Positions 19,975 to 43,233 of a DNA stretch of 64,000 bases are shown one piece after another. The stretch covers positions 6,024,600 through 6,088,599 of the forward strand of contig JAJEKV010000058.1 of NCBI GenBank assembly GCA_021234155.1. The letters run 5' to 3'. The notes under the pieces are model-generated. The model was not told the origin of the DNA, did no database searches, and was given only the letters and a program-made list of their open reading frames with translations. Source of the stretch: Isoetes taiwanensis. Its lineage: Eukaryota; Streptophyta; Lycopodiopsida; Isoetales; Isoetaceae. A program made the translations under genes and the position numbers. How positions within the stretch are numbered: position 1 is the stretch's first letter; every line of letters starts with the position of its first letter.

Positions 19975-22900
19975 ATAGTCTTGATCGAAGTGTACATCAT
20001 CGACTTTCTCATAGTCAGCAGGGTTAATTTTACTGCGATCAATTTCCTCCTCCTGCTCAGCTCCACCTTGGCCCGATGTCTCTCCTTTCTCTATATGAGA
20101 ACCTTGTTCGTCTACCCCCTTCTCAGCTTCACCATCTTTCAAAGTCAAGACTTCGCGCTGGCCAATGGCCTTTGGGGCAAGCAAGGGATATATGGCGTTC
20201 TCGACCCTACCCAGAATGCCCGATACGCATTTCATCTTTCCGAAGTCATGCTCATACGTCGCACTGATTCTTCCTATATGAAGTGATGCCCTAGAGAAGG
20301 CTCCAGCAGAGAAGAAATCTAGTACGATGTTACCTGGAGGGCAGAGCTTATCAACAAAGTAGAACGCAGTTGCAGGACCAATCTGCTTATGCATCAGATA
20401 TTCTCCCTCCATACCCTGCCAACTCCATTTAAACCTTCTTGCAGGAGTTTTTTAGCCATAACATCTCCCTCACTTCCAATGGCTTCGTTAGGGATAGGAG
20501 GAATTTGCGGGAGCTTTCGAGGATGATCGCCATATAGCCTGAGATCCAGGTCTTCATCAGGCTCTCCCGCCTGCGTACGAAATCCTCAGAGCAAGAATGA
20601 GAGTTTGTGGCTCTTTGATTCCCCACCACCCACCGTAGCTCCAGCTTCCTCTTCATAGATTCCTACAAACACTCTTGACCTAGATTCCAGTCTTTCAAGC
20701 GCACCGGCAAATAGAAAGTTATGTCTCTACCCCGACGAAACATAGAATCCAGTATGTCTCTACATTTGTCATCTGTGAGACGCTATAGAAGAATGCGGTT
20801 ATGTTCCAAACGGAGTAAGTAGCATCTATACATATCATGCCGGGCAGAGAATTGGCGGTTTCTGGAATCTCCCAGCGACATGTTCAACAAAATATCTTGG
20901 CAAGTCCTTTTCTCGCTTTGGGTCAAGGATTTTTCGAATAGATCTGGTCACGGAGAATGGCATGTTACCATGAACTCCCTCTTTGAGTATTCCTTCCGAA
21001 CACCCACTTATGGTGGCATACTCCCCAAGCCAGAAGTGCATTATCAGAGTGGCCTTCCTTAAGTCCTCGAATTTCTTGTACTTAATGCCAATTTGATCTG
21101 CAATGAAGTGCAGTATCTCCTTCTTCATGTAAGCAAGAATTCTTAAGTTTTGTGCTCTCGTCTTGAAGAAATTCTCGCCTTTGTAATCTGAGGTGACTTT
21201 GACGTATATATCCCCGCTTAATGCTTCTTCGAGGACCTTTCGACAATCATCATAGTCCAAGCCCCTCATGCATCTAAGGTAGTTGTCACTGAAGTAAAAT
21301 TGATTACTATAGCTTGACCCCTATTGTCCTTAAGTTCTCCCTTCCTCCATTTGTTCCACATCTGGCGGAAGAGTGCATAAACATCATCTGGCATGAAGAC
21401 AAACCTATTGACGTCCTTCGTGTGTTTGCCCCTCAGAATCTTATCTGCCATTTGAAGGTAGTGCTGCAACAGAACTGGCGATGTTAGAATTTCCAATGAT
21501 ATATGAAATGGCACAGCTGCGCCATTTATCGAAATGGCGCAGCTGCGCCATTTGGTGTAAATGGCGCAGCTGTGCTATTTATCGAAATGGCGCAGCTACG
21601 CAATTTGGTGTAAATGGCGCAGCTGTGCAATTTGGTGTAAGCCATTTACACCAAATGCGCCATTTACACAAAATGTATGGAAACACAGACGTAAAGGTAC
21701 CTTGTACTCATCACTTCTTGACTGTCCTTTACCAGCAGGAGCTGGTCTTCCACACTCCTGATACTGCTTACGCAGATGGTGAATCTGAGCCACATATGGT
21801 TCCTTGAAGACAGTCTTGGCTACTGTATCATTGACATCCACACTGAGCTGAAGAAGGTCCAAGTCACTGATCTCTCCAGAAAGAACTCTGCATATTCTGA
21901 AGTTATAGATCTTCCTGAGCTCAACTCTAGCATCTTCTGTCCCCAACTTACTGCACACAAGCTGAGCAGCAGAGACCGAATGATTACCATTGATAATATA
22001 AAATCGTTTCCCTACCAGATCAGATTCCTGTGACCAGGTCAGCAACTCCTTTATAGCTGGATCAAAGGGCACCACAACTGCTGGAGTGAATACCGGATGT
22101 GGATCCTCAGCAAAAGATTTGCATAGCCTCCTAACATGCTCAGGGTTAATAACCCTGGCAGTCATATTAGGTGGTGCCTCTTCTAGATCCCAGATAGATA
22201 TTCTTCTTGTGTATGTGACTCCAAGCGGGAATATGTGGCCGTGCTTTTGTATTTTTTTAATGTTTCCTCTGCCATTTCTTCTTCGACATCACGGTCCATC
22301 TTTAGTTCCTTGGGCACCTCAAGGTCTACAATCTTTTGCAATTTCCTTGCCCTTGTCTCCCTTTTTGTTTCTTTCTTTCTCTTTGCTGGTGTGCTATCTG
22401 TTGTGGATGCTACCACTTTTATGTGTTTTGTAGCCTCCTTATTATCACTAATTGTGCGATCGCTATCAGGTTTCCCAGAGGACTTCACAGGAGATTCCTT
22501 TTGGTGCGCCTCTTCCTCGTCCCTCTTCTCTTCCTGATGCTCGTCCCCCTTCTCTTCCTCCGGTCCTCCCTCTTGTTCTGCCTGCCTCTGTACTTCATTC
22601 CTCCTCCTGCCTTTGTTCCTTTGCCTGCTCTGATGGCTGGCTTAACCTTTACACTTTTTCTCTGCATCTCTCCCAGCAGCCATCTGCTATCCATTATTGC
22701 TGGCATGTTGCCTGAGAGCTTCGCTCTTACAATGTAGGACACAGAGTTTTTGGACATGTCCATTGCCGCTCGCAGAATACCAAATCCCTTGAGGATCTCT
22801 ATCGTGCCTTTGATATCTGCTTGCTCCCTGGACTCATAAGATGGCAGCGGCCAACCTTTTTTTTTGGCCGACAGTGCTTGGTCCTTTATGTTGGACTCCA

Positions 22901-23270
22901 TTATTGCCGGGGCGTCGCACTGGCAATCCATGCAGTAGAGATCAATGCTGCCACTGACCGGATCTTCCACTGTGCAGCCAAGAAAGTCAAGTCTTCCTTG
23001 TTTCTTGACTTCCCTCATGTTTACAATGATGCCCATCTGGGCCACGGAATACACTCCTGCTTCACCTCCACCTGACTTGACAAGGAGGCAAAGTTTTCGC
23101 CTCTTGTCTCCCTTCGATGGGTCACACCTTCAGTCAAGGGAATGGCTCTAACAATCTCTATACACCAAGACCTACCAGTCAGGACCAGGGTTCTCGATGT
23201 TACCACATTCCAAGCCTTCGGAGCAGCAGCTGCTGCAAGATAAGCATGGTGAGAAAAATGAAATGTATCA
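19975..23270 (-). pseudogene. ParB-like / degenerate DNA methyltransferase-like gene of element B (broken)
   Basis: Read on the minus strand from about 23,270. First comes an N-terminal domain matching element A (GRSWCIEIV versus GRSPSWAVEIM, and PLPSYESREQADIK versus KLPSYNNLQEAGIK), then a long basic linker (22,200-22,560). A ParB/sulfiredoxin-like segment follows (21,700-22,165) with IINGNHSVSAAQ, then EPYVAQIHHLRKQ. After an intron holding five palindromes come an alpha-helical region (20,835-21,480) and a methyltransferase-like end with VLDFFSAGAFSRASL..GR..YEHD, resembling motif I of N4/N6 DNA methylases. The position expected for DPPY reads IDATYS, so catalysis is doubtful. Frameshifts lie near 22,490, 21,296, 20,830 and at an A-run near 20,455, so the copy is dead unless the sequence has errors. 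No HAD domain is found, unlike element A. Confidence 0.65.
21506..21633. repeat. Palindrome array 1 of element B (five copies)
   Basis: Five copies of a 22-bp palindrome, core AATGGCGCAGCTGCGCCATT, start at 21,506, 21,532, 21,559, 21,585 and 21,612. The spacing is a regular 26-27 bp. The copy at 21,532 is a perfect palindrome and the others have one to three changes, mostly in the right half. A degenerate half-site pair follows at 21,641-21,668. The array lies inside an intron of the ParB-like gene, between the donor near 21,698 and the acceptor near 21,467. Confidence 0.95.
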
Positions 23271-23299
23271 ACTCTGCCCGACCCTAAAAGATAAAGAGC

Positions 23300-23650
23300 A
23301 AATGGTGCACCTGCGCCATTTAGAGCAAATGGCGCACCTGCGCCATTTCCATTGTGCTTATGGATCTCTGGTGTTAACGAGGTACATCTTTTGTAAATGC
23401 CATGCACCTCGGTAACACCAGAGACCCATAAGCACAATGGAAATATGTACCTCGTTAACACCAGAGATCCATAAGCACAATGGAAATGGCCCAGCTGTGC
23501 CATTTCCATTGGTATGGGTTCCCATCTAAAGGGAGACACATAGACATTCTAGAAATGGCACACCTGCGCCATTTCATATAACTAGTATAAATACCTAACT
23601 AGCCTATAACTAGCCTAACTAGCCTAGCGAAATGGCGCGTCCGCGCCATT
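23300..23650. repeat. Palindrome cluster 2 and 39-bp inverted repeat in the divergent region of element B
   Basis: Related palindromes lie at 23,300, 23,327, 23,484, 23,553 and 23,630. Two have centre CACCTG instead of CAGCTG and the last has GCGTCCGC. Between them, 23,348-23,386 (CCATTGTGCTTATGGATCTC and onward) is repeated in perfect inverted orientation just before 23,484. A third, slightly diverged copy lies at 23,406-23,443. The cluster sits at the 5' side of the ParB-like gene. Confidence 0.9.
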
Positions 23651-23756
23651 ACAGTTCTCTACGCTACTCCAAATCGATAAGAATAGAAACAACAGAAACT
23701 AACCTGAGCCTGGCTCCAGGATTTTGAGCGAAGATTGTGCCATTGTATTTGTACTG

Positions 23757-23790
23757 CGTATAAAAGTACTGGTTCGTATAAAAGTGACTC
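23757..23790 (+). promoter_or_regulatory. Duplicated TATA-like boxes, divergent promoter region of element B
   Basis: CGTATAAAAGT occurs twice 22 bp apart, in the orientation of the transposase-like gene and about 0.6 kb upstream of its presumed first exon. A TATAAATAC box lies nearby at 23,586-23,594. Promoter function is inferred from sequence alone. Confidence 0.35.
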
Positions 23791-23984
23791 CACCTTTTTT
23801 CGGAACGCTCCCGGATCAACAGGCGCTAGAGAGAGAAAATGTTTGAATAGGAGAGAGAGTGCATAATACCGGGCGCCGCGTATATGGAGGCGGAGGCGAG
23901 TAGGCGTAAAAGTAATGAAATGAAAAGTGGACTGAAAAGAAAAAGATAAGTCTGCGGAAAAGAAAAAAAATTTTACCCGCCCCG

Positions 23985-24392
23985 TCCCGCTTTTTTAATT
24001 TGCCCGCCCGTCAACGGCTCTCCAAATTTTTGAAATTTGAATTTTCCCTGGGTCCGCTTTTAAATTTGGTTCCTACCATCCGCCTCTCCAAATTTTTGAA
24101 ATTTGAATTTTCCCACCGGGTCTCCGCCCTTTCAAATTAGAATTTTCCTACCAGATTTTGAAATTTGAATTTGCCCGCCCGTATTTTGAATTTTGAATTT
24201 GCCTGTCCGTCCACTTCATAATCGGGGCCTTTCGTTGTCTTCGCTTCCTTGGCCGCTTGTCTTTCTTTTGCAGGCCACTTGGCACTTGTCTTCATTCTTC
24301 AGGCGCATTCTTCATTCTTCAGGCGCTTGTCTTCATTCTTCAGGCGCATTCTTCATTCTTCAAGCGCTTTCTTCATACTTCGGGCGCATTCT
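23985..24392 (+). repeat. Two short-unit repeats upstream of the element B transposase gene
   Basis: 23,985-24,205 has four degenerate units of CCAAATTTTTGAAATTTGAA plus TTTTCCC. 24,289-24,385 has about six units of TTCATTCTTCAGGCGC with a 16-18 bp period. Both end just before the ATG at 24,395. The ORFs overlapping the second array in all three frames are repeat-derived. Confidence 0.8.
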
Positions 24393-24768
24393 CTGATGGC
24401 AGATCCGGAATCTTCAATGACCTCCAGGTTAGAGGCTATTCAGTTTTAGTATGTTAAATGTGTACTCTCAATGTAGTTGATGTAGGATGGAACTGGAGAT
24501 GGTAGATTGCATGGGTTAATGTTGTGTATTTAATGAGAATTCTTTTCAGTGTGTTGCGCGTTGACCATAATTCTAAACAGGTTAAGTTTTTGAAGGGTAG
24601 ATCTTCTCTATTTTGCGTCAGTAGATAAGTTCTCAACAATTGATGTCTTAAAGGGTACATTTTCTTTGATTGCTGAATCTTGTAGTAATAAGAATCCGTA
24701 ACTCTAGTTATTAGATATAGCATTTAGATTAAAGATGCCATGTAGGTGTAAATGGGCCATTTTCCTAA

Positions 24769-24984
24769 AAATGGAGCGGCTGCGCCATTTACACGTGAAT
24801 GGGGCAGCTGCGCCATTTTCCTTTAAATAGCGCAGCTGCTCCATTTATGTGTAAATGGTGCAGCTGCTCCATTTAAAGGAAAATGGCGCAGCTGCCCCAT
24901 TTAAAGGAAAATGGCGCAGCTGCCCCATTTACAGGTAAATGGCGCGACATCGCCATTTCGTAAATGGAGCAGCTGCGCCATTTG
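24769..24984. repeat. Palindrome array 3 of element B (eight copies, 28-bp phase)
   Basis: Eight 22-bp palindromes start at 24,769, 24,797, 24,825, 24,853, 24,881, 24,909, 24,937 and 24,963, with intervals of 28 six times and then 26 bp. The core is AATGGCGCAGCTGCGCCATT with compensating variants (GGAGC..GCGCC, GCGC..GCCCC). Copy 7 keeps both arms but has GACATC at the centre. The six-base spacers are themselves often palindrome-like (ACACGT, TTAAAG). The array lies in the first intron of the transposase-like gene. Confidence 0.95.
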
Positions 24985-25885
24985 TCCCATGTCGTCTAAT
25001 TTCTTCCATATTTTCGCGCTATTTTTAACTAAGTGTATGTTATCGAGGGTTGCATATCTTTAACAAGTATGTGTGTGTATTGAATCTTAGAGGAAAAGGC
25101 CCCTGCGTAACCTTCTCCATGGGGATGTGGTTGTTGCCAGGGGACATGAATTGCATAGAGGCCATCTGTATGGCAGGAACATTGCATGGTGCAATGTGGT
25201 CGTGGAGGTCATTGAAGCCATAGTGCCCTCCCATGTGCTTCCCATTCTGTGTGCGGGCGTTAATAACATTGCTGAAGCCGTGGGGACATTTATCGAATGG
25301 CCTCGAAATCAAGTAAGAATCTGTGAAACTGCCTCACCTGTGTCATCGGGAACGTATGATACTGAAACCCCCAACTTGCCTAGTAGTCCCTCTACATCAT
25401 CATCAGACTCAGTGTCGACTGCTCCCCTCCTTCAAACAGTAAGCAGCACAAAGAATATGGTGAACCTAGTCAGTAATAATACTGTGGTTAGTAAGGGTGT
25501 CTTGGTGAATAGAACTTGCATCCATGGGAAGAATGTTGACGCATTCAACGTAGCAGTGCAAGTTACCGAGGCTGTAGTGCCTACCCACATCCTTCCGATT
25601 CCATGTGATGGCGCGGACAACATTGAAGAGGTCGTAAGCATGTTTATCGACCGCCTCTAGATATAAAGATATCATTTTCATTGATTTAGCTACTCCATCA
25701 CCGACCCTCTAATATAGAATCAGAGGCAAAGGTCGATGATGCGATGAAGAAATTGATCCTACAAAGGATCTAGCTACTCGCTTTCCTTGCAAGATAGCAT
25801 CGATGATGATGAACCACCACCTAGTTTCTCAAGAACCTAACTCTTGGATAAGCATTGCCACATTCTTCATGCATGTGACTGAAGT

Positions 25886-26550
25886 CATGGAATAAAATAA
25901 CGGCTAAGGTTAGCCAAATGGCTATTTTGTAGCATTTTTGCCAAGAAAAACGGCTAAAGTAAATGGAAAAAATGCCCAAAAAAAGAAAATTTTAGCCCAA
26001 ATTTTTGCCACCCAAGTGAGTTTTAGGTTGAATAGCCAAACCTTTACCTCCGCATATCCATCGTGACATGGATTAGCTAAATCTAAGATAGAGTGGGCTT
26101 GGAAAAATGGATAGATTAGCCTGCAATTCAACACCAATGTATGTACTAACTTTAAGAAATTTCAAATAGGGTTTATATTTTTCTTTTTTTTCTTTTTCCA
26201 CTTCCTTTCTTGTTCCAAGTACAAAGTTGAAGCATTAGAGGAAAAGGAACAATGTATTCCCCTTTTTTTAGGTTTTTGAACATGTTCATGTATGGTCGTG
26301 TCTTGATTTATGTATTTACAATAAATTCAATGCCTTTACCAAAATGTTTGGATTTTTTTTAATTACTATAGCATGATGGCTAATATTTGTCTTTCCATTT
26401 TGTGAAAGTTTAGCCAAAAGGAAGAAATTGTGATGGAGAAAAACCATTTAGTTTAGCCAAGTGTTAGAAACTTCTAGCCCCAATTTGAAGGTAGTTTAGC
26501 TAAACCTATTTTGGCTACACTAAAATATAGGAGTAGTAATTTATTCCATG
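25886..26550. mobile_element. 665-bp MITE-like insertion in the element B transposase gene
   Basis: The ends are inverted repeats: CATGGAATAAAATAAC on the left and AATTTATTCCATG on the right. They are flanked by ACTGAAGT (25,878-25,885) and TCTGAAGT (26,551-26,558), an 8-bp duplication with one mismatch. The interior repeats GGCTAAAGT/TTAGCC motifs and has no transposase. The 8-bp duplication fits hAT-type insertion. It separates the DUF8039-like exons from the transposase body. Confidence 0.7.
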
Positions 26551-29408
26551 TCTGAAGTAAATATGCAGAGGCTATAATTGTCTTCAGTGATTCCCAGGAT
26601 GCTGTTGACGATGAATTTTTAGGAGACTCAAAGGTAGGCCTCTGTGTGGGAAAGGTGCTTCCTGCACTAATTACAGAGGATCTCAAATGTCATGCTTGTG
26701 CAGAAAGGCCAGCAGAAAATGCACTTGTACAATGGAAAAATAGTGATGTGATGTTGCAGGATGGAAGGACTGTCTCACAACATCTGCAAGCTCGAGAAGC
26801 TAAAGAAAATGAGGATATAGAGCTAGAATCATTTGAAGACAACATTCAGGCTCAATTCAAACGAAAAAGGAAGTATACTTACACAAATAGAATTCCAAGA
26901 GAGCCCAAGGGAAAGAGCAAAGAGGAAAGGCTATGCTCCACAAGTTCCATCAACAAGTTTATGAAGTCAAGCTGCTGCAAAAATACTTTGCAACAAGAAA
27001 CTTACCAAGCATCAAGTACGTGAATTAAGAAAAGAATTTTTATCCCAACCATACAATGCAAGGGTTACGTATTTTTTTGACGTGCTGAGTGTCACTTACA
27101 CAGGAGAAGGAGATGACAGGATAGTGCTCAAGGGGATGGAATTCTGTCTGGCTGGGTGGCGCATGGTTTTAGGTATCAGTCAGTCAACATTTTACAATTG
27201 GAGAAACAGATTTGAAGCAGGTGGAAAGCTAGCTGAACATGGTAATACGGGCTCTAAGAAGCCTAGATCTTCTACATTGGCCACCGAATGCGTGCTAGAC
27301 AGATTCATTCAGGAGAATGCTGAAAGTATTCCCCATAGGAGCAAAAGAGGTAGAGATGATGTAAGAGAAAATGTACGCAAGCTTCCTTCCATTCTTAATA
27401 AGAAGCTTATACATAAAGAAGTTGGTGCAGTCGTTGAAGAGCTTACAGGAACAACTGTAGCCTTGAACTCTTTTTATAGTATATGGAAAAGAGAATTTCC
27501 AGATGTTAGCATTGCAAAAAATACAGCCTTCTCTAAATGCAACATCTGCGTGGTAATTAAGCAAAAGCTGGAAAAAACAAAAGATACAAGCGAGAGAGAC
27601 GAAATCTTGCAATTCAACATTGGGCTCATATGCTAGAGCAATGTTCTTGCAGAAGTCAATATTGGCATTGGAGAGCATTGTCACAGCGGTCTCTAGAAAA
27701 TCATTTATGTATAATAAGTGATAAGATGGATCAGGTTAAGACTTTAGTGCCTAGAAGTCATCATCTAGCAAAATCTGTATGGAGAGGTGATCGCTTGAAG
27801 AGCAGTTTGACAGGAGCTCTGACTCATGGGCATGGTGGTCGTGCCTATGGTCATTTTTCACTTGATTTATGGAAAGATGATTCAAACTTCCACATTGGTT
27901 CACTAATTTCTAGGATATTGCATAACTTGGAATTGGTACAAGAGGACAAGATAGGTGACTTATGTGGAAGTAAGCCTGCAGATTGCAAATGGATGCAAGC
28001 AGTCAAGGATACCAATCCTTTGAAGAATAAACTTGCTTCCATGGCAGAAGTATTGCCAAATACTTCAACTACAACGAACCCTGAGGTGTTCAACCCTCTT
28101 CCTCGAAATCTCTATTTGCAACTTGATAATGCATCAGGCCAAAACAAAAATAGGTATGTCTTTTCATACTTATCTTATTTGACTTGGCTTAAGGTCTTTG
28201 ATGAGATCCAAGTGGGCTTTATGATGGTCGGCCACACCCATGATGATATTGATGCTTTATTTGGAATTTTTTCAACCTTGATGAGTTCATCGGATGCTTT
28301 GACACTACCAGAATGCAAAATCTCCAATTCCATACTTTATTGATGAAGTTCCAAATTGGAAGGCGTTTGTGAAGGGATTCATCCCTGATAAGGGCCAAGG
28401 CCTGGTTGGGCTGAACCATTGCTCTTCAAATTTAAGATGGCAGGAGATTGGCCTGTTATGCAATACAAAATGTGTCCTACACATAAAGAGTGGCTTCCAG
28501 CAGATTCTCCAGGAGTTAGAATGTGGAAAGAGGATGAACATGGTCAGCCAATGCTACCAAGTGGTGTGCCACAAAATATTCCTCCTAGACCAACATTGAA
28601 AGATCTTCTAGGGTTGAAGGATAGCATCAACAAATACATCTCCCTATGGAAGGACATATGTAAGAATCAAGAATCTAGCTTGTTTGCAAGGCAATACACG
28701 GCAAGTGTTGAGTATTGGAGCCAGCTTCTTATCTCTTTGGAGGATGTTGCTCCAGGACGTCCTCAAAATGATGCATTTTGGCCACAAACAAGACAAGCTG
28801 CTCTAGAAAAAGTTGCATTTGTTCCAAAGGTCGACGTATCTGCCTTGGTCACGTGACCTTTACCATCTTATTGTGGCCCGTCAGATGGCCGTCCAGTGTC
28901 GCCTCTTGAAGAGTTTAAATCCTCACATACATGTGACAAAGGGTATGTTTGTTCTAGTCAGACCTGGTGCCACCTGGTTAGGATATGCAGAGGAGAATGC
29001 TGTTCTTGATCCAGAATCTACATATTTTGGCCATATTTATATATCGTGGTGGAAGCCTACTGGAGGGAAGTATAAAGACTGCTTAACTAAGCATTGGCGG
29101 CCTAATCCTTCCGATCCTTCAAGGTACCTTCAAGGTACGAAAATTTAGATGCTATTCATTATGCTTGGGATGCCAATGGCAAGAGGCCAAAAACTGTCCA
29201 GATTCTGAAATATATTGTAGACATGTGGAAAGACATAGCACATTGTTCATCTTAATACATGAGATCTTGTACTTGTAATACATATCTTTCATCTTAATAC
29301 ATAACATCTTGTACATTACTATAATTTAGATCATTACAAGTGCTCTTATGCATTACTATATCTTATATGCCAGAACATCACTACATTATATATTGCTGAA
29401 ATTCTGAT

Positions 29409-29651
29409 TCACTCATCCTCAACACCTGCTGAGGTGATCCCTGATATCTCATAGCTATTGCGCTCAGGAAGCCAAATAAGATGGATCATAACACGAGTTA
29501 GCCCAGGGCAACGAATCTCAGCACCATTTGCTTTGGATTGCAGGTAGGGATCAAGAAGAATACCCCTTATTTGGCAACCGACAAGATCATTGTAGCTCAT
29601 TGAGCACTTGATCGCCTCGATGTGGTGCACAGAAGATGGCAAATAATCCAT
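29409..29651 (-). CDS. Micro-gene 1, 80-residue unknown protein
   Basis: The ORF starts at 29,651 and ends at TGA 29,409. Recognisable blocks are IKCSMSYNDL, LDPYLQSKANG, TRVMIHLIW and the C-terminus GITSAGVEDE. There is no signal peptide or membrane segment. It has a relative 0.64 kb to the right on the same strand and a more diverged one on the opposite strand. Conservation between copies follows codon frame and extends into a matching upstream region with a TATA box, which supports a real gene. It lies just beyond the transposase gene of element B and could be a passenger gene or a separate small family. No function is recognised. Confidence 0.55.
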   Translation of the reverse strand: MDYLPSSVHHIEAIKCSMSYNDLVGCQIRGILLDPYLQSKANGAEIRCPGLTRVMIHLIWLPERNSYEISGITSAGVEDE

Positions 29652-29702
29652 GGGAGATGAATGACCTCTACCGCCGAATGGAGCTGCTTTTATAGCGAAG
29701 TA
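29652..29702 (-). promoter_or_regulatory. TATA box and leader of micro-gene 1
   Basis: On the minus strand TATAAAAG (29,687-29,694) lies 36 bp before the ATG. The interval AGCAGCTCCATTCGG..GTAGAGGTC..TTCATCTCCC is nearly identical ahead of micro-gene 2 (30,286-30,328), with the same spacing. AGCAGCTCCATT also resembles a half-site of the element B palindromes. Confidence 0.5.
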
Positions 29703-30052
29703 AAATTATTGATGTGAATTTTTAGTGTAGATTGTAGCGCCATTATTGAGCGTGTACAAGAGTCATGTACACGTACAAGTATAATGCATATTTTATATGG
29801 ATATGTGACTCATGTAAAATCATGCTTTGTATCTTGGATTTTAGTAAGGTAAAAGTATTTTCGCTTGAGTAAATTAGGTGTGCTTGAAATTAGGGACTGC
29901 TTGCAGAAAAAGTGGAGGTCGAAGAGCACACCGTTACAAATTACTCAGGTTCGATACATCAAATAATATTCATTATGCTTATACATCCTTACATATTCCA
30001 GAAGTGTTTATATCATTATATCTTAACAGGTACACAAGTCATCACTGATTCA

Positions 30053-30285
30053 CTCATCATCAACACCTGCTGAGGTGATGGCATTCAGCTCATAGATCTC
30101 CTGATCAAGAAACCAATAAAGATGGATCACAACACGAGTGAGCTTCCTGCAATGAGTCCATCTGCTTTGGATTGCAGCCATGGATCAAGTTTGACACCCT
30201 TTATCACGCATTCACAAAGATCATTGTACCTCATGTAGCACTTGATGGTTTGGATGTGGTCCGGACGATCAGGCAAGGAAGCCAT
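30053..30285 (-). pseudogene. Micro-gene 2, frameshifted relative of micro-gene 1
   Basis: It starts MASLPDRPDHIQTIKC and continues MRYNDL and LDPWLQSK, matching micro-gene 1. A frameshift near 30,155 then moves the conserved end (LTRVVIHL, AITSAGVDDE) into another frame. The upstream TATAAAAG element at 30,321-30,328 and the leader match micro-gene 1. The frameshift makes this copy probably non-functional. Confidence 0.55.
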
Positions 30286-30359
30286 GGGAGATGAACGACC
30301 TCTACACCCGAATGGAGCTGCTTTTATAGTGAAGTAAAATTATTGATGTCTACTGCATC

Positions 30360-30480
30360 AAAATTATTGGGTATATACGAGTACCATACAAGTATGTATA
30401 TGATCCAATAATTTCTATGTATATACCATCAATAATTTTGGTGGGTATATACCATCAATAATTTTGGTGGGTATAAATAT
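30360..30480. repeat. Short repeats of ATCAATAATTTTGGTGGGTATATA
   Basis: A unit containing CCATCAATAATTTTGGTGGG (period about 28 bp) is present twice, with related inverted pieces (CAAAATTATTGGGTATATA) just to the left. Confidence 0.75.
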
Positions 30481-30529
30481 ACATCAAATTGCCGAGTGCA
30501 GCAACATTGGCCTCCGTCTAGCTATGACG

Positions 30530-30760
30530 CATTCTGGTTCTGAACGTGATTCTATCACTTGATGAATCATGAGGACTTCAAGCAATGCCGCGAGCGAGAT
30601 ATACCGCTTGAAGACTGGCTCACCACTGTTGCCCTCAATCCTCGCCATTGATCCCTTCGATGTTATCATCCATCTTATATGGAATAGAGAGCATCAAATG
30701 TTCATGATCGAAAGGATCTCTGGAGCGCCTTCTGCTGGTTCTAATCATTTAGAAGAGTAA
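30530..30760 (+). pseudogene. Micro-gene 3, diverged relative on the opposite strand
   Basis: The plus-strand frame ends with DVIIHLIWNREHQMFMIE followed by SGAPSAG, which aligns with RVMIHLIWLPERNSYEIS and TSAG of micro-gene 1. The N-terminal half is not clearly conserved, and in-frame stops lie upstream of the available ATG at 30,569. It faces away from copies 1 and 2. Confidence 0.4.
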
Positions 30761-30811
30761 TAGTAGAAGAATAATAGTACTTGTTATCTTATTGTAATCT
30801 GGTTGTGTTAG

Positions 30812-30945
30812 TATACAACAGGTATACATAACCTTTTGTAATACACATAACCATACTATAAGTATTGAGGTGTACTAGTATACAACAGGTATACATAACC
30901 TTTTGTAATACACATAACCATACTATAAGTATTGAGGTATACATA
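30812..30945. repeat. 65-bp tandem duplication
   Basis: TAGTATACAACAGGTATACA with the following ACCTTTTGTAATACACATAA block is present twice head to tail (30,812 and 30,877), nearly identical. It lies between micro-gene 3 and the hAT pseudogene. Confidence 0.85.
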
Positions 30946-31038
30946 ACCCTCCAAGGTATACTATATAAAAAATTATTCCAACTTGTCTTCAGAATTCCAA
31001 ATTTAATGAAACTCTGCTTTGTTGCGATTCAAAAACTG

Positions 31039-32945: not shown

Positions 32946-32949
32946 ATTG

Positions 32950-34995
32950 GCGCTGCAGGAGGGGTGGTGTCATTGAACTCTTCTACTTGGCACGGTTCTT
33001 GACTATCCCTTGGCTGTGTTTTTCTTCTGATGTTCTTTTTTCGAAGCAACACTTCAATTGCATCTTGTCATAGGTCGGCAGGTGCAGTACAAGTTTGCAC
33101 CCCAATTTTAGAGTCCCGTAAAATATGAGCTCAAATTCTTATCGCAGATCCATTTATTAACGTGTACCCACGCATAAGCAAAACTTCATTGAAATTTCGC
33201 TTACGTGAAATTTTCACGGTGTCAGAAATGTTTTTTAACGTATTATACTTCAATTGTGCCGTATCTTTCGAATAATACGTATTGCATATAAAACATATAC
33301 AGTATTGAACCTATCTCTGGTGGGAGGCACATTTGCCCTAGCGTTTGTAGTAGCCCACTGTATTAAGATAGAAAAAATTATAGTCAATCAAGATCAACTT
33401 TCGTCCATTAATGAGCTCTGCCCTAAGAAAGCGCCTAATAGAAGGATGTCTGCTTAATTCATGAATCTTCATTTTGATTTGTAAACTCAGCAGGTGCTTG
33501 CTATTCGTTCTATTGCATACTGTTGTCTAAATCATTGTTACACTAGCTATGACGTTTTTTTACGGAATCAATAGATGAGGGAAAGAAAATGCACATTTGT
33601 ATTTTTTGTTGTTCTGATTTCAAGTGATCTGAAGGTAGGAATGAATAGGCTAGCATAACACCAGATAGTATTGTAAGAACATGTGAAAAGTTTCCTTTCA
33701 CATGAGAAAACAACCAATTCATGGAGAAATTCTACTACAATTGCTCAAATTGCAAGTAAGTCTTATTTCAATTTGTGCCTTCATCCTGATATAAAGGTAC
33801 CTCCATTGTGCAACATGGTTTTTCTATCATGTGTGCTTGTAATGGCAAAATTCAAACAAATCCAACCAGTCTCCTAGCAGGCGAAACATTTTTAATAACT
33901 GGTCATTGAGAGCTCTAGATTATGAGCCAGGTAAATCATTTGCAAATAGAATCTGTTATGCTAGGTAGGTTCTCCATAATGCAAAATATAACTTCAGACT
34001 GTCCACTAATGTGTCTCGAGGGATCCACCTTCTTCATAGGGGATATGATAGGGTAGCCGAAAAACCCCTAGTATACGTGTTTCTGATAAGCAAATTTGAT
34101 TTACAACTAGAAGAACATCCCAAAACCCCTATGACCTCTATCATACATATGGAAAAGGGTAAAAAATCGCCCCCTCCCATTGATGCACGTGGTTTTGACA
34201 GGTTCCACAAGGTGACGCCCCCTTGTAATGTGTATTACAAAGAATTGTATGCTGGCTCCCAGAAGCTATTTAGTGCATGAAGATATATAGCACATGACTT
34301 AGTTTCACAAACAATCATGATAGTTATAGCTATGAATTTGAGTTGACTCTAGCTTCAAGGCTTGCAAGGAACTTAGTTCAGCAGTTCACCCACTTAGCTC
34401 CATATATAATCATTATAGATAGGAATTTGAGGTCACTGTAATAATGGATTTGTTACAGAATGATCCTGAACACAATGTCCAATACTTATCCAAGGAAAGA
34501 TCTATGAATGGACCATGAGTAATCTTTGTTACAGAGAAAACAAAATTACTTGTAGTTGAACCTCTTCTTCATCATATGCCAAGGGGTCCAAACTCCTAAA
34601 ATTTGCATGCCATACAGGATAATATCTAAATTAAGAGGCCATATATCTGAATGCTAGGATTGTCTTAAACTATTGAGTGGCCTGCAACATGAATAGCACT
34701 CCAGCATGAAAAGATTACATGGTTGATCTTGTTGTGTTGAAGGTAGAAGCACCAAATACATTTCTGCAATAATGGGAACCCATAGCCCAGCTTGCAGTAA
34801 AATCCAGCACCATCACTCTGCTAAACTCATCAAGTATTTGGAGTTGGAAGTATGGGCATAATGGAGACCGTTTTTACTTTAAATTAGAATAGATGTAATA
34901 AGAGAGCTTGTAAAGTAGCATACATGAACTCTGCAGAAAAAAACAACTCCATGCATCAGTACCTTCTGCAAAGTTTCAATGGCCTATGACAGTTG
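32950..34995. other. Gene-free stretch
   Basis: ORFs are under 90 codons without recognisable domains. It lies between the hAT pseudogene and the left target-site duplication of the copia element. Confidence 0.45.
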
Positions 34996-35000
34996 TACTG

Positions 35001-35196
35001 TGAAAGTCTATTGAATTCAATGTATTGAAGGAAATAGAGACCACAAAGGAAAATGGAGCGTAAGCTATCTCAGAATGCTACAGAGAAGAACCCCTGCTCT
35101 AAGCTGACTATGACATTTATAGTAGGATCATGTCAGTACAATAGGTGGCATACTATGCTGAGTCATTATAACAATGTGATATAGTGAATGTCTAAC
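35001..35196 (-). repeat. Copia 3' LTR
   Basis: On the minus strand it runs TGTTAGACATTCACTATATC...AATAGACTTTCA. It is preceded by the AGGGGGA polypurine tract (35,197-35,203) and followed by the TSD TACTG. Confidence 0.92.
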
Positions 35197-35208
35197 ATCC
35201 CCCTGATG

Positions 35209-35689
35209 ACCAGCATACCTGAAAGGAAATCTAAATTCTAACAAAAAAGAACCTTAAAAGGTTTTTATTCCCCCCTGGGAATGAGCCACAGGTGCAACAT
35301 GTAAGAAATTTTTCATAGTAGAGAAATTGTTGCCTGTAAGACCCTTAGTGAAACCATCAGCACACTGATCCTTAATAGAACAGTAGGAAAGTGTAAGTAA
35401 CTTATTCTGCAGCTATTCTCGAACAAAACAGAGTTTGATGTCCATGTGCTTGATTTGTAAATGAAGCTGATAGTCCTTCGCATGTTGTATTGCTCCAAGA
35501 TTGTCACAATATATCTTTGCTGGTGTAGTTAGAATGCCAAGATCTTCAAATAAATGAACTAATCACAACATTTCCTGCACTGTGAAAGTAAGGGCTTTAA
35601 TTTCTGCTTCAGTGATACTAATATTGTTAGAGTCTTGTTTTTGGGACTTCCAGCTGATAGGATTATCACCAAAGAAGGAAAGATAGCCC
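35209..35689 (-). pseudogene. Copia RNase H domain, C-terminal part
   Basis: Minus-strand translation gives CLTGYLSFFGDNPISWKS, ITEAEIKAL, IYCDNLGAIQHAKD and DQCADGFTKGLTG, the usual end of copia polyproteins. In-frame stops are present (for example after KLCFVRE). It is separated from the N-terminal part of the domain (36,359-36,604) by the hAT MITE. Confidence 0.85.
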
Positions 35690-35697
35690 GTGAGACA

Positions 35698-36350
35698 CAG
35701 GGATGCTTTTATTTATTTTCCCAATGCAAATTATATAGAATGGTTGGCGAATCTAAGGAGAATTAGATTAGTTTTAGTGGCGAATATGCTAAACTACCCT
35801 TTTTTTTTATAACTATTTGGCGAATTTGTTTGTTGTTGAAGCTTTAAAGTTTAGAAATATAGGCTTGCTGAAGCTTTATAATCTAGAATTATAGGCAAAT
35901 ACCACTCTTATACTGGCAGTAAAACACAATATAAATCATCTATTTGTTTTCTGTTTTGCTTCTACTCATATTAGTTTAAAACTCGAGCATTTCTAGTTCA
36001 TTCTCAACTCGAAAACATCAAATTGCTGAAAATGCAGAAAAGAAAAGCTCTTAAATCCTCAAGAAAACTACAAATATTTTTTTTTGATGCTCTAAAATCC
36101 GTGTGCTTGGATTGATCTGGGCGAATACTATACCTCCGGGGCAAGAAGGTGTAGAATGGAGGCGAATCCACTCCTATCTGAGATTAGATTACAGGGCGAA
36201 TACGTTCTTGGCGGGATGGCCTCCTATCAACTCGGGGCGAATATGCCAAAAAAAAATGGGCCACGTACACTACTCAACATTCGTATGCAATTTTCAAAAA
36301 TCCCTAAAAATTCGGTTTTTGGCGAATATTCGCCACTAAAATCATCACTG
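35698..36350. mobile_element. 653-bp hAT MITE
   Basis: Flanked by a perfect 8-bp duplication GTGAGACA (35,690-35,697 and 36,351-36,358). Ends are CAGGGATGCTTTTA on the left and, inverted, CAGTGATGATTTTA on the right, typical hAT termini (CAGGG/CAGTG). GGCGAATAT and ATATTCGCC motifs recur inside. No transposase. Removing it restores the copia RNase H frame (SKKCLTGYL). Confidence 0.93.
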
Positions 36351-36358
36351 GTGAGACA

Positions 36359-36604
36359 TTTTTTTGAGTCAATATCGGTGGAGGCCATGTCTGAATCAGA
36401 GTAAGGGATAAGTTATGGATTAGGCACTTTAGTGTAGTGTAGACCATCTGTGGCAGTGCCTTTTAGATATCGAAGTACACGCTGTGCTGCCTTCCAATGT
36501 GATTGTTTGGGATGGGTCATAAAGCGAGACAAGACTCCGACGGCATAGACAATATCAGGTCGAGTAGTACAAAGATATAGGAGTGCTCCAACTAATTGCC
36601 TATA
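36359..36604 (-). pseudogene. Copia RT end / RNase H start
   Basis: The minus-strand frame reads [20 protein letters not shown], then [20 protein letters not shown] and SDSDMASTDIDSKK. Its upstream end (codons D-S-T-L) lies across element A at 47,794, so the two flanks join in frame at the TAAT target site. Confidence 0.9.
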
Positions 36605-36758
36605 TAATAAGCACTATTTCATTAATTTGAGAACAATGCATAAAATTGAGAAATTGAAGAGCATATATTAAGTTCCATTTGTTAATACAAATACACAAAG
36701 TTTGAATTGAAATTGAATTACAATTAAATAGAATAGAATAAATTTTTTAACATCTACA

Positions 36759-36866
36759 GAGACCAATAGGTCATGGGACCCATACAATGGGCTAGTACAA
36801 TCATTACTACTAGGATTAAAAAACCCCTGCCTCGAAAGTTTTTCAAGGGAAAAACCTTTGCAGTAA
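36759..36866 (-). repeat. Segment shared with 6,672-6,782
   Basis: In reverse orientation this matches the end of the GC-rich fragment at 5.7-6.8 kb, including GGGGTTTTTTAAYCC and GTATKGGTCCCATRACCKATTGGTCTC-like blocks. It lies between the transposase stop and the left TIR of element A. Confidence 0.7.
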
Positions 36867-36943
36867 TGATGATACTAGACAATCAGAGATAAAACAAAAT
36901 AAAATAAAACACAACTACATTAAATAGTAACTTTGTCCATAAT

Positions 36944-39900
36944 TCAACCCACAAGCTTCAAGTTCCACTTTGCCTTCTCGGCATTCTTCTTTGGTATCTT
37001 GTGTGCATTCAGTTTTGAAATGTCTTTACCTCCCCAAGGTTGATACGAGAACAAGATACAACTTGTTAGTTCGCGTCTTGGAGGATCTGATGGATTTCTC
37101 ACCCATTGTTTACTCCAACAATTCTCATACAATGCCTTTTCATCAGTTTCTTTCTTTCTAGTGCCTCGTGGTGTCCAGTATTGAACCATGAACCAATACT
37201 TATTTGGGTCCTTTGAATTTTCATCTGGAAGCGGGTCTGAGAGTGCTTCCCCTAGCCATACAGGATATATGTCAGGATCGCTAGGTCTGACAAGGACAAA
37301 GCATCCTTTTTTTATGTCCTCACTTACTTCCCATTCTGGCAAGTCATGCCATTTAGGTCTAGATGCTTTGCTACCAACATGCCATGCAGATAAAGGATCT
37401 CGCCTTTTCCTGAATTCTCCAATTTCACAGCTATCAAAGCTTTCACCTTTCCATCGTGATGCAGGTAGAAAACCATCTTTTAAAGGACCAGCTGTAATGT
37501 CTACATTTTGTAAAGAGTCTAGTACTCTTCTCCAATATCCAATAGTATTATAAAGACAAGTAGCCTTTTCTTCCCCAGTGCTAGGGTGTTTCATCATCTG
37601 CTCCCAATGACTAATGAATTGTTGTACTCCTTTAGTCAACGATTGCATGTCCTTCAAGCTTCCAAAAGGTGGCAAGCTTTGTGGCTCACCTGTGGGTATT
37701 TTGGGCTTTCCATTTTCATCACGTTTCCACATCTCAATAGGATCACCCCAATTGTCATCAGAAGGGTGCATCTTACACTGCATAATTGGGATACCTTCTC
37801 TAACCCAAAACTTAAACTGCAATGGTTTAGAATGTCCAGTCAATGCTTCTTTTCCATCAGGCATATAGTCTTGAACAAATCCTTTCCAATCAGGCACTTC
37901 ATCCACAAGGAAGGCAACGGACCTAGGTGATACACTTGATTCAAATATCTCCATCAGTTGTGGTAGCGTGGTTATAGACTCCCTCTTCAAAGATGAAGAA
38001 AACACGCCAAAAAATGCATCGATATCCTCATGGGTATGTCCAACCATGAGAAATCCAACTTTTACTGTCTCAAAGACACCTCTTGCCGTTAAATATGAGC
38101 ATGCTTGAAATAGCCATCGATTCTTATTTTCTTTGAAGCAATTATCCAGCTGTAAACAAAACTCTCGAGGCAAAGGCTTTGGATAAAAATCTGGAACGTC
38201 CTCACTTGTTGTTAACGGCTTGTCACATGGCTTATTAGATGATGAGCTAGATGAAAACCTAATGGAATCCCGTAATGATCTCTGAGATATAAATGCTTGA
38301 TTGTCCATTAGAGCATCAAAAACACCTGTATAGCTAGCTGCCCCTGTGGACTTCAACACGCCTCTTTCCAAATTTCTTAAGCACTTGAATATTGAACCAA
38401 CATGAAAGTTTGGGCCATCCTCCCATAGATCTAAAGTAAAATGACCATATGCGCCAGCACCATGACCATGTGTAAGCATACCTGCTAAAGATATCTTCAA
38501 TTGCTGTGCATTACCACAATTCTTCGGTATTGGCTGGATCCTAGGCAAGAAAGTCTTATGTTGGTCCATTTTATCATGGATGATGCATAAACATTTATCA
38601 GGTTCTAAGTTGGAAAATGTTCTCCATTGCCAATACACGGATCTACAAGACATTTGCTCTGCTTGGTGTGCACGCAATTCCTCAAATAATGCATCATATT
38701 TTGCAGTAACCATAGTGCTCCTCATGGCCTCCCTCAGAGATATACATGTACTGCACTTGGAGAATGAAGAGTTCTTTCCCACTTCCACATTTGGAAAATG
38801 CTTTGCCCATAGCTTGCTAAATGCAGTTTGAGAGATAGAATGCCCTCCTAATCTAGTCATCACCGTATTAACCTCTTCCAAGCACACTTTTTGAATGTAA
38901 GATGGAGGTAACACTTTGACTACTTGTTTAGTCCCGTCAATCCCTACTTTTGCCCTATGTGGCATTGATTCTGCCATACTTTTTACAAGACCATCAAACA
39001 CATTGATAGCTAGCAATGTATTATCTCTTGTCTTCAATGAACCTGTGTTTCCATGCAGAGCTCTTCTAGCACCCATATCAAATTCTTCTTTGCTTCTGTA
39101 GAAAGTAGCATCAGAAATGTTAACTATCCTGCACCATGCCTCTCTGCAAACCCATTTGCCAAAAAGCGAATACTTAAGATGCCCTGTATCATTGTCCCTA
39201 TGGCATGCACCAAATATGGAATATCTCATTGTCCTTCTATCATTGCTATGTTGTCCCCAATATGTAGTCCTAATAGAAAGCAACTCATCTAGAGAGTATT
39301 GGATGGTGCATTGTGAAGGACAACAGGCCATACCCCTAACCAATTGCACTTGCTCCATTGGGCTTAATTGCTCTTTCTCCTTTTTTTTCCTTTTTGGAAT
39401 TGCTTTCTTTCTCATGGAAAATCGGTATGGTCTTTTCCTGATGTTGATTGCCTGCTCATATGGTACCAACTTCACATCATTGTTTGCATTACATTGCATA
39501 GGCAACAACCTACTGCCATCCATGTTCGTAACAAGTGAGATAGGCCATCTCATCAACACTCTAACCTCTAATGACCCCTTGCAAGCTTCACAACCATTAT
39601 TCAAAATGCCAACTTCATCTGGATTTGACGGCATCAATTCACTAATCATCACTCCAACAAAATCTTGTCCTAATGGCTGATTAGAAACAAAATCTAGAGG
39701 GTCAGTTACAATCATGATTCCAGTTGCAAAGCTCTCCGCAGAACAAGCATGCAACATCTTTACATATTTTCCTTTCCATTCGCTTCTCCTCACAACCATC
39801 TCAGGCGCATTCATATTTGATGCAGAACTTGACTTTGCTTGAGACACACTTGACTTTGTTTGTGGTGCACTCGATCCTGCTTCTTTGTTAGCTAGCTATA

Positions 39901-41208
39901 ACATTCAAATAGTTGACAGTTAGCAAACATTGTAATAAAATGGTCCAAATAAAACTGGTTAGATAAATTTGTACAAATTGACATTGTTTTTTGAAAAATG
40001 CATGTTTCATGGACATATGTCCGTATGCAGCACTATTTAGCTACTTAAGCTAAAACTAGAAGAATTATGCATCTTAATGTTCCCAGGAACATAAGAGGCT
40101 TAGGAAGACATCTAAAACTAAAGAGACTAACTAAGCAAACAAGGAGACTTAAAAGAGACTATCTAAGTAAACAACATAAGGATTCAAATAAACGAAAGGG
40201 AAGATATGCTATTAGAACCTATATATCTTTTGGTATGGCCAAAAACTTAGGATTCAAATGTTTATTAAAGTATTGAGGATACCCAAGCCTGGTATCCCCT
40301 TAAATATTAAACAAGAAAAAAAATCACGACAGAGCGGTGGCAGCCAAGCTACAGATCCGGCAAGCACCAATTCTGGATTCAATAAGGCCCAATTCTATCA
40401 CATGCCACCGGATTTCTACAAACAAAGGAAATTTGTAAGGAAGATTCGGATTTCTACCTCAAGGCCAGAGATTATCACATATCAGAGGTCGGCATAGCAG
40501 CATAAAAACGGATGCCATGGACGAATTTAGAGCAGGGTTAGGACGCCATGGACGGATTCAGAACAGGGTTCGGATGCTATGGACAGAAAAAGGGGCAGCA
40601 TCGAATGTTCTGAGCTCTGCTATTTGGGGTCGCTCTGAGGCAGATCCGGATATGAAATAGCCAGCATCTTTTTCATGCAGCAATGATAGATTTAGCCATA
40701 AAAAAGGCAGATCCGGATATAAAATGGAGGAATCGGCCAGAACCCTGCTGCAAAATCCGGCATCTTTAGCCCAGAGCTCCATTGTGTGATGAAAACAGAG
40801 TAACACAAACCCATTTTTCCTCAAAAAACAGAAATTTTCAAACAAGAATGTATGTGGCTTTGGAAACAGAGTTACTGGCCTGGTTTTTCCTCTGAAAACA
40901 GAGTAACACGAACCCATTTTTCCTCCAAAAACAGAAATTTTCAAACAAGAATGTAGTGGACTAACCTCTTTAGCATAGAGAATATCTTTTACTGGCCACT
41001 CCACGAATGATCCCACTGCTTCAGATACGGTCTCAGCTCCAAGAGTTGGTTTCGGCAGCATTATTTCGCCTCCCAATGAGGATCGCACCTCTACGTTGCA
41101 CCATCCAGCTTCAATGCTCTTGCAATGGATTGTCCCAAAGGATTCCATGACAATGCCTTTACCAACAATGTTTCCATCGATAAGAAGCTGGCATTCTGCA
41201 TGAGCCAT
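36944..41208 (-). CDS. DUF7869-like transposase of element A (two exons)
   Basis: Exon 1 is 41,208-40,966 (about 81 codons, donor AGAG/GTTAGT). Exon 2 is 39,895-36,944 (about 983 codons after acceptor TATAG), with no internal stop. Exon 1 is DUF8039-like (GNIVGKGIV..IHC..WCNVEV..LPKP..EAVGSFVEWP), a domain I recall from plant transposon proteins. Exon 2 holds a CxxC segment (CEACKG), basic KKKAIPKRKKK, CCPSQC, a helix-turn-helix-like ISDATFYRSKEEF, SKCSTC, and then the putative catalytic blocks IIHDKMDQ, LQLDNCFKENKNR and GHTHEDIDAFFG, giving D..D..D/E as in RNase H-fold transposases. The C-terminal part (YPVWLGEAL, WVRNPSDP) is also conserved in element B. The intact long frame suggests recent activity. 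The role as transposase is inferred. Confidence 0.75.
40010..40025. repeat. CATATG palindrome in the element A transposase intron
   Basis: TGGACATATGTCCGTA contains a perfect 12-bp palindrome GGACATATGTCC. The same motif is repeated upstream of the ParB-like gene. It lies in the transposase intron, matching where element B keeps its eight-copy array. Confidence 0.8.
40796..40960. repeat. Tandem duplication at the exon 1 donor of the element A transposase
   Basis: AGAGTAACACRAACCCATTTTTCCTC plus the following AACAGAAATTTTCAAACAAGAATGTA occurs twice, about 110 bp apart. The right copy ends next to the intron donor. Confidence 0.85.
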
Positions 41209-43233
41209 AGGACTTTAGACAAAATTTAAGACTGAATAGGAGTTGTGCACAGAAGTAAATTACCTTGGGTTTTCTCTTTAGTAGTATCCTGTGATGCCAT
41301 ATTCAGCCGCAGCCGCTTATGATGTTTTTGATGCCTCAGATAACTCTTCAATTTCCAACAAGACTGAAAATGGAGGTGCAGCCGAAAATGATGAAGAATC
41401 AGCGGGAAGTGGTGAAGAAAGAATTGTAACAGAAAGAAGCGCAGAGGATTTCGGGTTCAAGATTCAATCTTGGACGCCCATGTTTCAAATTTCGAATTTC
41501 TAAAAATAGCATCATTCTCCTTAACAAACCATTAAAGATTTTTCTGTTACACCCACCGCCTCTGATCGAGCGGCTAAAACAAGAAGAAGTGAAGACTGTT
41601 GAAGGCGGAGGAGGCTTCTCAAGAATGGAGGCAGCAAAACATGGACGTGAAGTACTCGGCATGACTTCCAAAAAAAGGCGAAAACCAGGTGGGTGCCCGT
41701 TCTTATTCTTCTTCTTCCTCTGTGAAATCTCTGAAATCTCTGTTGTTATCTCAAGAATAAGAGAACATGCGAGTATCTTTGGCTGCAAAAAGTCCGAGCA
41801 TGATCGTAGCTGATTATTTAGATTTGCTTTAGCCCATCTGACACAAACAAAAATCCTATGTACTACTGAACAAAAAATTGTATCCTGTGTACTACCGAAC
41901 CAAATCATGTGTCCTCGTTGCTTCTGTTAGATTTGCATATCCAAACACCATTTTTTTTTTTAAAATCTACCTTTGTTTTTCGTTTCTTTTGCTTACTTAG
42001 ATTTGCATGCTCAAATATCCCCTTTTTTTTTTCTTTTTACCTACCTTTGTTTTTCATTTCTTTTTCTTACTGCCACATCATCAAATATTACCTTTGAGAT
42101 AATGACCTTAATATTTTCAAGATACCTACTATCCTCCTTTTTTTTTACATTGCCACTATAAATATTAATGGCATTGCCTTCTAGAGGCCAATATTCCTTT
42201 GAGTCCCAAATTACTATTTTTACAACTTGTGATCTTTCTCCTTTTCTTGTTATGTTTGATGTTTGGCTTGCCCTTTTATTTGTACTTTTTTCCCCTTTCC
42301 TTATGTGATTATTGGATAGTGATTGACCATTCCATTGGATAATTGGTTTGGGGTTTTTTAATTAGAGATTAATCTCGACCGTCCATTTGATCCAACAATT
42401 GATCTTAGCCCCTGTCCATAAACCTCTGTGTCTTCGAAATACTTAGTTTTTTTGCTTTGTGTTCTAGTTTGCTTTATAACATAGAGAAAGAAAATATGGT
42501 GTTGTTACGGACACATGTCTTCAAAACTCTTTTTTGGCTTCCATGCTCTTTTGCTTTGGGTTTTAGTTTGCTTTATAATGTACAGAAAAAAAAATGTAGT
42601 GTTGTTACGGACATATGTTTGCAAAACCCTTTTCTTGGCTTTATGCTCTAGTTTAGTTTATAATGCATGAAATGTATCAAAACAAAAAAGAAAACGAAAA
42701 TGCTCTAGTTTATTTTATAGCATAGAAAAAATGTTTATTACGGACATATGTCTGTAAAAGCCTAGTTTTGTTTTGCTTTATTCTCTAGTTTTAAGGAAAT
42801 GTGGATGATGTCTGCAAGCCTCTAGTTTTATTTTGCTTTTCATCTAGATTATTTTATAAGGAAACATGCACAGTGCAGTGAAAATGAAAATGTATAATTC
42901 TTTATTACGGACATATGTCTGCAAACCTTTAGTTTTATTTTGATTTTCATCTGAAAATGTGGAAAGTGCATAGAAAAAAAGGCATAATATTGTATTACGG
43001 ACATATGTCTGCATAGTATCTTATTACTTCTACTTATACTTCTAGTTTTGCCTTTTTGCTAGTTTAGCTTGAAAAGAAAATGTGAGCAGTGCATAGAAAG
43101 GGTAATCCATAGACCTTATTACGGACATATGTCTGTAAACCTCGAGTTTTTTGTTATCTAGTTTATTGTATTATTCTAAGGAATCAAGTTCTAAGCCTCT
43201 TATCTACAGACGTATGTCTGCAAACATCCACTA
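41209..43233. promoter_or_regulatory. Divergent intergenic region of element A
   Basis: 2 kb separates the two start codons. It holds a short ORF (41,291-41,503) without recognised domains, a duplicated T-rich segment (41,945-42,065; CTACCTTTGTTTTTCRTTTC), and the CATATG palindrome repeats. Both genes probably take their promoters from here, though no single TATA box stands out. Confidence 0.5.
42430..43222 (+). repeat. Degenerate repeat carrying seven CATATG-type palindromes
   Basis: Palindrome ACGGACATATGTCTGC or close variants start at 42,507, 42,607, 42,740, 42,907, 42,997, 43,121 and 43,206. They are embedded in a degenerate unit of about 100 bp (CTCTAGTTTTATTTTGCTTT..AAGGAAAATG..AGTGCATAGAAAA). 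A weaker half-site lies at 42,810. The last palindrome ends 12 bp before the ParB-like ATG. The palindrome is better conserved than the unit around it. Confidence 0.9.

Follow-up and report, generated by a model that had tools for sequence, protein, structure and literature searches.

The DNA considered here is a 64,000-nt stretch from the plant Isoetes taiwanensis (contig JAJEKV010000058.1, positions 6,024,600 to 6,088,599), hereafter the window, in whose numbering all positions are given. It holds two diverged DNA transposons of one family, referred to as elements B and A, and each of them carries repeated sites of a palindrome of its own; all comparisons between them are comparisons of two elements (n = 2). 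A pattern written from their ends has four matches in the window at up to three mismatches (0.25 expected), and all four are the ends of A and B, so the terminal repeats are common to both elements whereas the palindromes are not. Both elements are flanked by target-site duplications (TSDs) of 4 bp, the length found in the Sola superfamily. When the flanks of element A are rejoined with a single copy of the TSD, a 127-aa frame is open across the junction, and by eye the element appears to have inserted into a Ty1/copia frame. The DNA around element B looks hAT-derived by the same kind of reading; its rejoined flanks give no long frame (the longest has 17 aa), and the assignment of B therefore rests on its ends and TSD. 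The region 31020-36608 lies outside both elements, and the interval given in the preliminary description accordingly includes DNA belonging to neither. The right part of B also contains one block in two diverged copies (29404-30349; 76% and 79% in adjoining pieces of 114 and 192 nt), and a 165-nt inverted repeat, 98% complementary, adjoins element A in copia-like sequence at 48410-48800, where the searched region ended, so that the repeat may be longer.

Table 1. Elements, genes and palindrome sites in the window.
Feature	Position	Strand	Size or number of sites	Remarks
Element B	19447-31019		11,573 bp	Inverted ends 25/25 perfect; TSD TGTT on both sides
B cluster 1	19727..19874		4 sites	Spacing 42-43 bp; 280-430 bp from left end
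B accessory gene	19972..23252	-		Frames broken; limits by eye
B cluster 2	21507..21632		5 sites	Spacing 26-27 bp; putative accessory-gene intron, by eye
B cluster 3	23301..23650		5 sites	Just upstream of accessory coding region as read by eye
B transposase gene	24396..29148	+		Frames broken; putative first exon about 24396, by eye
B cluster 4	24770..24982		8 sites	Spacing 28 bp, last 25; between putative first exon and exon at 25091
Element A	36609-47789		11,181 bp	Inverted ends 89% complementary over 28 nt; TSD TAAT
A transposase gene	36944..41299	-		Main exon 36944-39895; exon about 40965-41214; putative first exon 41261-41299; limits by eye
A single site	40007..40026		1 site	Transposase intron after exon matching B exon at 25091
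A cluster	42505..43223		7 sites	Spacing 85-167 bp; divergent region beside accessory gene
A accessory gene	43252..47405	+		N-terminal region, ParB-like stretch, methyltransferase-like stretch, NIF phosphatase domain

Each element carries two genes, a transposase gene and an accessory gene transcribed divergently from it. Both transposases contain a DUF7869 domain (E 5e-41 in A, E 3.5e-34 in B) and align with 37.8% identity over 413 columns, a further alignment of 210 columns giving 30.5%. The motifs DKMDQ, LQLDN and GHTHxDID keep their aspartates unchanged in A and in one frame of B, the two sequences compared. Relatives of the transposase were confirmed neither in viral contigs (53 stretches) nor in genome contigs (72 stretches), and a pattern search with the transposase motifs gave no match; the palindrome pattern occurred in three viral stretches and the end-repeat pattern in two, all of which we take as chance. 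Sola elements are described as having a DDD transposase and 4-bp TSDs, and as known from moss (PMC10741241). We call A and B Sola1-like, short of proven Sola1, because their TSDs and accessory-gene layout resemble those of described Sola elements. The accessory gene of A, when its exons are joined from 43953, encodes 1,078 aa without a stop codon; upstream of this position it is open in a different frame, with a putative start and junction. Its last part, reached via a short intron, is a NIF (NLI-interacting-factor) phosphatase domain (46374-47402, E 3.7e-10); the scan of B frames showed no such domain. The accessory gene of B was recognised by tblastn with the N-terminal part of the A protein (E 1.4e-8). 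In the frames scanned, DUF7869 and NIF are the only families above their curated cut-offs inside the elements, helix-turn-helix families staying below threshold.

At the thresholds used, each kind of palindrome is confined to one element. In B, 17 sequences match GCGCAGCTGCGC with at most two mismatches, where 0.61 are expected and none of 100 shuffles reaches 17; a wider definition, which asks for 14/20 or more matches to AATGGCGCAGCTGCGCCATT and for 7/10 or more symmetric pairs, yields 22 sites in the window, all of them inside B. One match outside B also reaches 14/20 to AATGGCGCAGCTGCGCCATT but has only 5/10 symmetric pairs. The palindrome of A has eight matches with at most two mismatches (0.57 expected; 0/100 shuffles), and the eight sites found in the window at 15/20 or better all lie inside A. 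Clustering of the 74 even palindromes of the window (20 bp, at most two mismatched pairs) returned families of 18 (B) and 3 (A) members and no other family above 2, the largest cluster in ten window shuffles also being 2. The preliminary description had assigned a separate palindrome to each element, with eight copies in A and at least 18 in B, and had likened them to cognate sites of paralogous proteins; the confinement (22/22 and 8/8) and the eight sites of A bear out the separate palindromes, which look as cognate sites would, and the count for B rises to 22, with the four sites at 19727-19874 falling outside the interval then considered.

That description had also named the B palindrome after a CAGCTG core and had drawn attention to the CANNTG core shared by both kinds of site. 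CAGCTG is the exact centre of 11 of the 22 B sites, but the best conserved part of the site is the outer AATGG/CCATT and not the centre. CANNTG centres are found in 15/22 B and 7/8 A sites and, together with the position of sites near the divergent region, would suit binding by host factors, for example basic helix-loop-helix (bHLH) proteins at CANNTG or other transcription factors, with the palindromes acting as enhancers of the element's two genes. We regard this as improbable: the conserved core of about 20 bp far exceeds an E-box, the B site is held best at its outer arms, the density of CANNTG rises only slightly in the elements (B 6.7 per kb and A 7.5, palindromes counted, against 5.9 window-wide), and there is no reason why a single host factor should require unrelated sites in two sister elements. 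The consensus arms of A and B agree at 3/10 positions, where 2.5 are expected at random, and we therefore reject the shared CANNTG as the trace of a common ancestral site and give it no weight.

With respect to the genes, the two elements share one placement: sites lie in the divergent region, immediately before the accessory coding region in our reading. On a coarse exon map covering 51% of B and 64% of A, which we drew by eye knowing where the sites were, no site overlaps coding sequence (0/22 in B, 0/8 in A). The claim of equal placement in the divergent region and the transposase intron stands for the divergent region, and only roughly for the transposase gene, where the matching exon has its sites on one side in B and on the other in A: cluster 4 of B precedes the exon encoding the EAVGxFxEWP stretch, and whether it is intronic depends on the putative first exon at about 24396, whereas the single site of A follows that exon. 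B alone has sites near its left end, and B alone has them in a putative accessory-gene intron; the corresponding intron of A measures 64 bp and carries none.

The ends of the elements bear directly on whether the transposase itself could be the binder. In CACTA elements, TnpA sites regulate transcription or help to assemble the transposition complex, and the palindromes could likewise be bound by the transposase, or by an N-terminal DNA-binding part of it. A sub-threshold HTH_29 match in a neighbouring B transposase frame (E 2.8e-6; at 27.7 bits just short of the cut-off, 28.1) keeps the transposase in play as a rival binder, the two transposases differ (37.8% identity over the longer alignment), and cluster 1 of B lies close to the left end. 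Sites for end recognition are, however, expected at both ends, and at the thresholds used the right end of B has none in the adjoining 6 kb or so, and the left and right ends of A have none in the adjoining 3.4 and 4.6 kb. Sites are thus near one of the four ends only, which disfavours a role in end recognition, and A and B share their terminal repeats and not their palindromes. We consider binding by the transposase unlikely, though far from negligible.

Whether the palindromes are more than drifting repeats can be judged from the comparison of cores and surroundings, for which, as for symmetry, the figures treat related copies as independent and are indicative. Between B sites in different clusters, core identity is 0.79 and flank identity 0.32 (177 site pairs); six units of the 28-bp array of B give 0.89 for their 20-bp cores against 0.55 for the 8-bp linkers; and the seven clustered sites of A give 0.88 for the core against 0.37 for the flanks. 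The information content per column follows the same course, with 1.49 bits in the core and 0.40 in the flanks for B, and 1.67 bits in the core against 0.65 and 0.75 in the flanks for A. The cores are thus conserved while the linkers drift, and this argues that the palindromes are more than drifting repeats. A functionless, minisatellite-like origin, with spread via slippage and template switching at hairpins, would account for the tandem arrays and regular spacings of B (26-28 and 42-43 bp) and for a 65-nt inverted duplication at 23327-23505 (94% complementary, 49 nt between the arms) that contains two palindromes and is likely the product of a template-switch event, so that part of the spread of the B palindrome was mechanical. 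It accounts poorly for cores that are conserved where linkers are not, both within the 28-bp array and between clusters, for the irregularly spaced A sites with their dissimilar flanks, and for the lack of any other palindrome family above two members in the window, and we judge it quite improbable as the whole explanation.

The symmetry of the B sites exceeds that of shuffled columns: 184 of 220 pairs are symmetric, compared with a mean of 176.4 in 2,000 column shuffles (P 0.0085). Among mismatched pairs, read on the presumed sense strand, B has 6 G-U, 9 A-C and 21 others and A has 9 G-U, 8 A-C and 3 others (cluster 1 of B, which lies beyond the accessory stop codon, was assigned to the accessory strand). 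RNA hairpins are disfavoured by the lack of a clear excess of G-U over A-C, and the symmetry fits a DNA site for a dimer better than it fits an RNA hairpin.

The accessory protein is the likelier candidate for a binder, and its domains are less firmly identified than its gene. Judged by eye from known motifs, it would consist of a ParB-like stretch, which in B is 24% identical to that of A, followed by a stretch resembling beta-class methyltransferases. The ParB-like label, which the preliminary description also used, was not confirmed by any profile test: Pfam gave no match to the ParB-like stretches at E 1 or better, the best PHROGs match to the accessory protein was at E 0.13, and against the ParB part and the whole of a profile of ParB-methyltransferase fusions the ParB-like stretches ranked at P 0.11 to 1.0 among 1,000 shuffles. 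This profile was built from 26 fusions, comprising 25 among the 120 listed of 7,996 scored and one phage protein. The C-terminal fragment of B fared better against three overlapping methyltransferase profiles (rank P 0.002, 0.012 and 0.015 among 20 tests in all, with some shuffles scoring higher), and the methyltransferase-like stretch of A scored no better than shuffles. When aligned to the fusion profile, the A and B pieces together land on the expected methyltransferase motif, and A alone lands elsewhere; in profile-profile comparison with the 26 fusions, neither A and B together nor A alone showed a clear margin over three shuffles or the reversed sequence. Used as a query, the accessory protein of A had no homologue among 3,696 candidates at E 0.001 or among 3,313 at E 10, and none among phage proteins at E 10; among solved structures the best match, at E 0.058, was neither a ParB protein nor a methyltransferase. 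Structure predictions were poor, with a mean pLDDT of 36.4 for the methyltransferase-like stretch of A and 32.8 for the ParB-like stretch (two sequences).

A methyltransferase-like accessory protein could also use the palindromes as the sites at which it modifies the element's own DNA, an explanation that overlaps with the reading favoured below. The methyltransferase-like stretch, as read from motifs, is in its favour, as is the prediction that a published relative makes N4-methylcytosine (4mC) or N6-methyladenine (6mA) (PMC12477816). As a distinct function of the palindromes we nevertheless give it little credence, as profile tests did not confirm the domain and the sequences seen by eye at the DPPY position are DLHL in A and DATY in B. 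DPPY is the motif of beta-class methyltransferases.

We tentatively favour, at just short of an even chance, a reading by analogy in which the palindrome arrays are dimer sites for the element's own accessory protein and work like the VANC motif arrays of VANDAL elements. In this model, the arrays of each transposon would be recognised by a dimer of a protein that it encodes itself, most likely the divergently transcribed accessory protein. Binding at many sites, in the element's own introns and divergent region and at one end of B, would mark the element as self and leave its genes open to expression, probably through an effect against host silencing like that of VANC proteins on VANDAL elements. 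After the two lineages split, site and binder would have diverged jointly, leaving each element to tag only its own kind. The sites, their confinement to one element each, the conservation of cores over linkers and the divergent two-gene layout are features of the DNA itself; the placement in introns and other non-coding DNA depends on gene models drawn by eye, and the identity of the binder, its binding as a dimer and the anti-silencing outcome are what the model would add.

Several observations weigh against this reading. The co-variation of site and protein is a contrast between two elements only. The exon map was drawn by eye and five B sites lie wholly or partly in open frames of the accessory strand (two of cluster 2 in the frame 21596-22288 and three of cluster 3 in the frame 23021-23548), and the non-coding placement in B therefore cannot count as separate support. 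Neither accessory protein matches a ParB or methyltransferase profile significantly, and the clearest sign of a DNA-binding domain is the sub-threshold helix-turn-helix match described above, which belongs to the B transposase. Two-sided compensatory changes taken alone are not significant in B (5 against 2.4 expected, P 0.068), and some B copies arose by local duplication, as the 65-nt inverted repeat attests. Finally, both genes of B have broken frames, and its sites may therefore no longer be under selection.

A more elaborate version would have the accessory protein load at its private palindromes as ParB does at parS, spread, and carry its methyltransferase-like domain, and in A also the phosphatase, along the element. 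The transposon would thereby build a domain of active chromatin or of a DNA mark of its own, with site and reader co-diverged into a self-code for each lineage. We judge this version as a whole quite improbable.

Elsewhere in the window, frames were read by eye as Ty1/copia and hAT fragments, and there is one DUF659 match besides, which we take to be linked to hAT elements. The region 13000-15320 has a strong purine skew (GC skew about 0.6, AT skew about 0.55) and imperfect G/A-rich tandem repeats, 1856-2492 contains tandem repeats of 28 bp and 69 bp with AATAAATGCAAAG units, and Rfam gave no structured-RNA match at gathering score anywhere in the window.

Among known systems, several invite comparison. 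Repeated short sites in a plant transposon recall the TnpA sites of CACTA/En-Spm elements, which are subterminal and found at both ends; in A and B, three of the four ends are without sites. Clustered palindromes beside a gene whose product looks ParB-like recall parS, the clustered palindromic sites of bacterial ParB systems, although this product matches no ParB profile and the genes read by eye showed no partition partner. The nearest described relative in layout is Sola1-1_Ec32 of Ectocarpus, reported to carry a ParB-like/DNA-methyltransferase accessory gene whose product is proposed to bind its own transposon (PMC12477816). Like A and B it is a large DNA transposon with the accessory gene on the strand opposite the transposase and with ParB-like and methyltransferase-like stretches, labels that in our elements come from motifs and are unconfirmed by profiles. 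It differs in that the available part of its description mentions no palindrome arrays (PMC12477816), and our elements differ from it in that they lie in plant DNA and that A adds a NIF phosphatase domain. Palindrome arrays were likewise not named for Sola elements in the titles or abstract openings among the matches listed in a literature search. TET/JBP genes are described in fungal transposons (PMC12730594).

The closest functional parallel would be with the VANDAL elements of Arabidopsis. VANC21 is reported to bind a 9-base motif in the introns, intergenic and terminal non-coding DNA of its own element, and such motifs are described as tandem repeats that differ between related elements and are thought to co-evolve with the binder encoded by the element (PMC5735166); the outcome is a loss of DNA methylation brought about by the VANC protein (PMC5735166, PMC10398659). 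Element-specific motif arrays in non-coding DNA, as far as an exon map drawn by eye can tell, are found in A and B as well. In contrast, the palindromes here are 20-22 bp long, and transposase and accessory protein look unrelated to their VANDAL counterparts: the profile scan of frames matched neither a MULE transposase nor a VANC protein, a VANC protein not having been compared directly. Transposons with a ParB-like/methyltransferase-like gene have been proposed to bind and mark their own DNA, in descriptions whose available part names no binding site. For this proposal the arrays provide concrete candidate sites, and the two palindrome variants predict the specificity of two paralogous proteins, which makes the idea directly testable. 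If it is true, an unrelated transposon superfamily would have reached the VANDAL solution, private motif arrays together with a self-encoded binder, independently.

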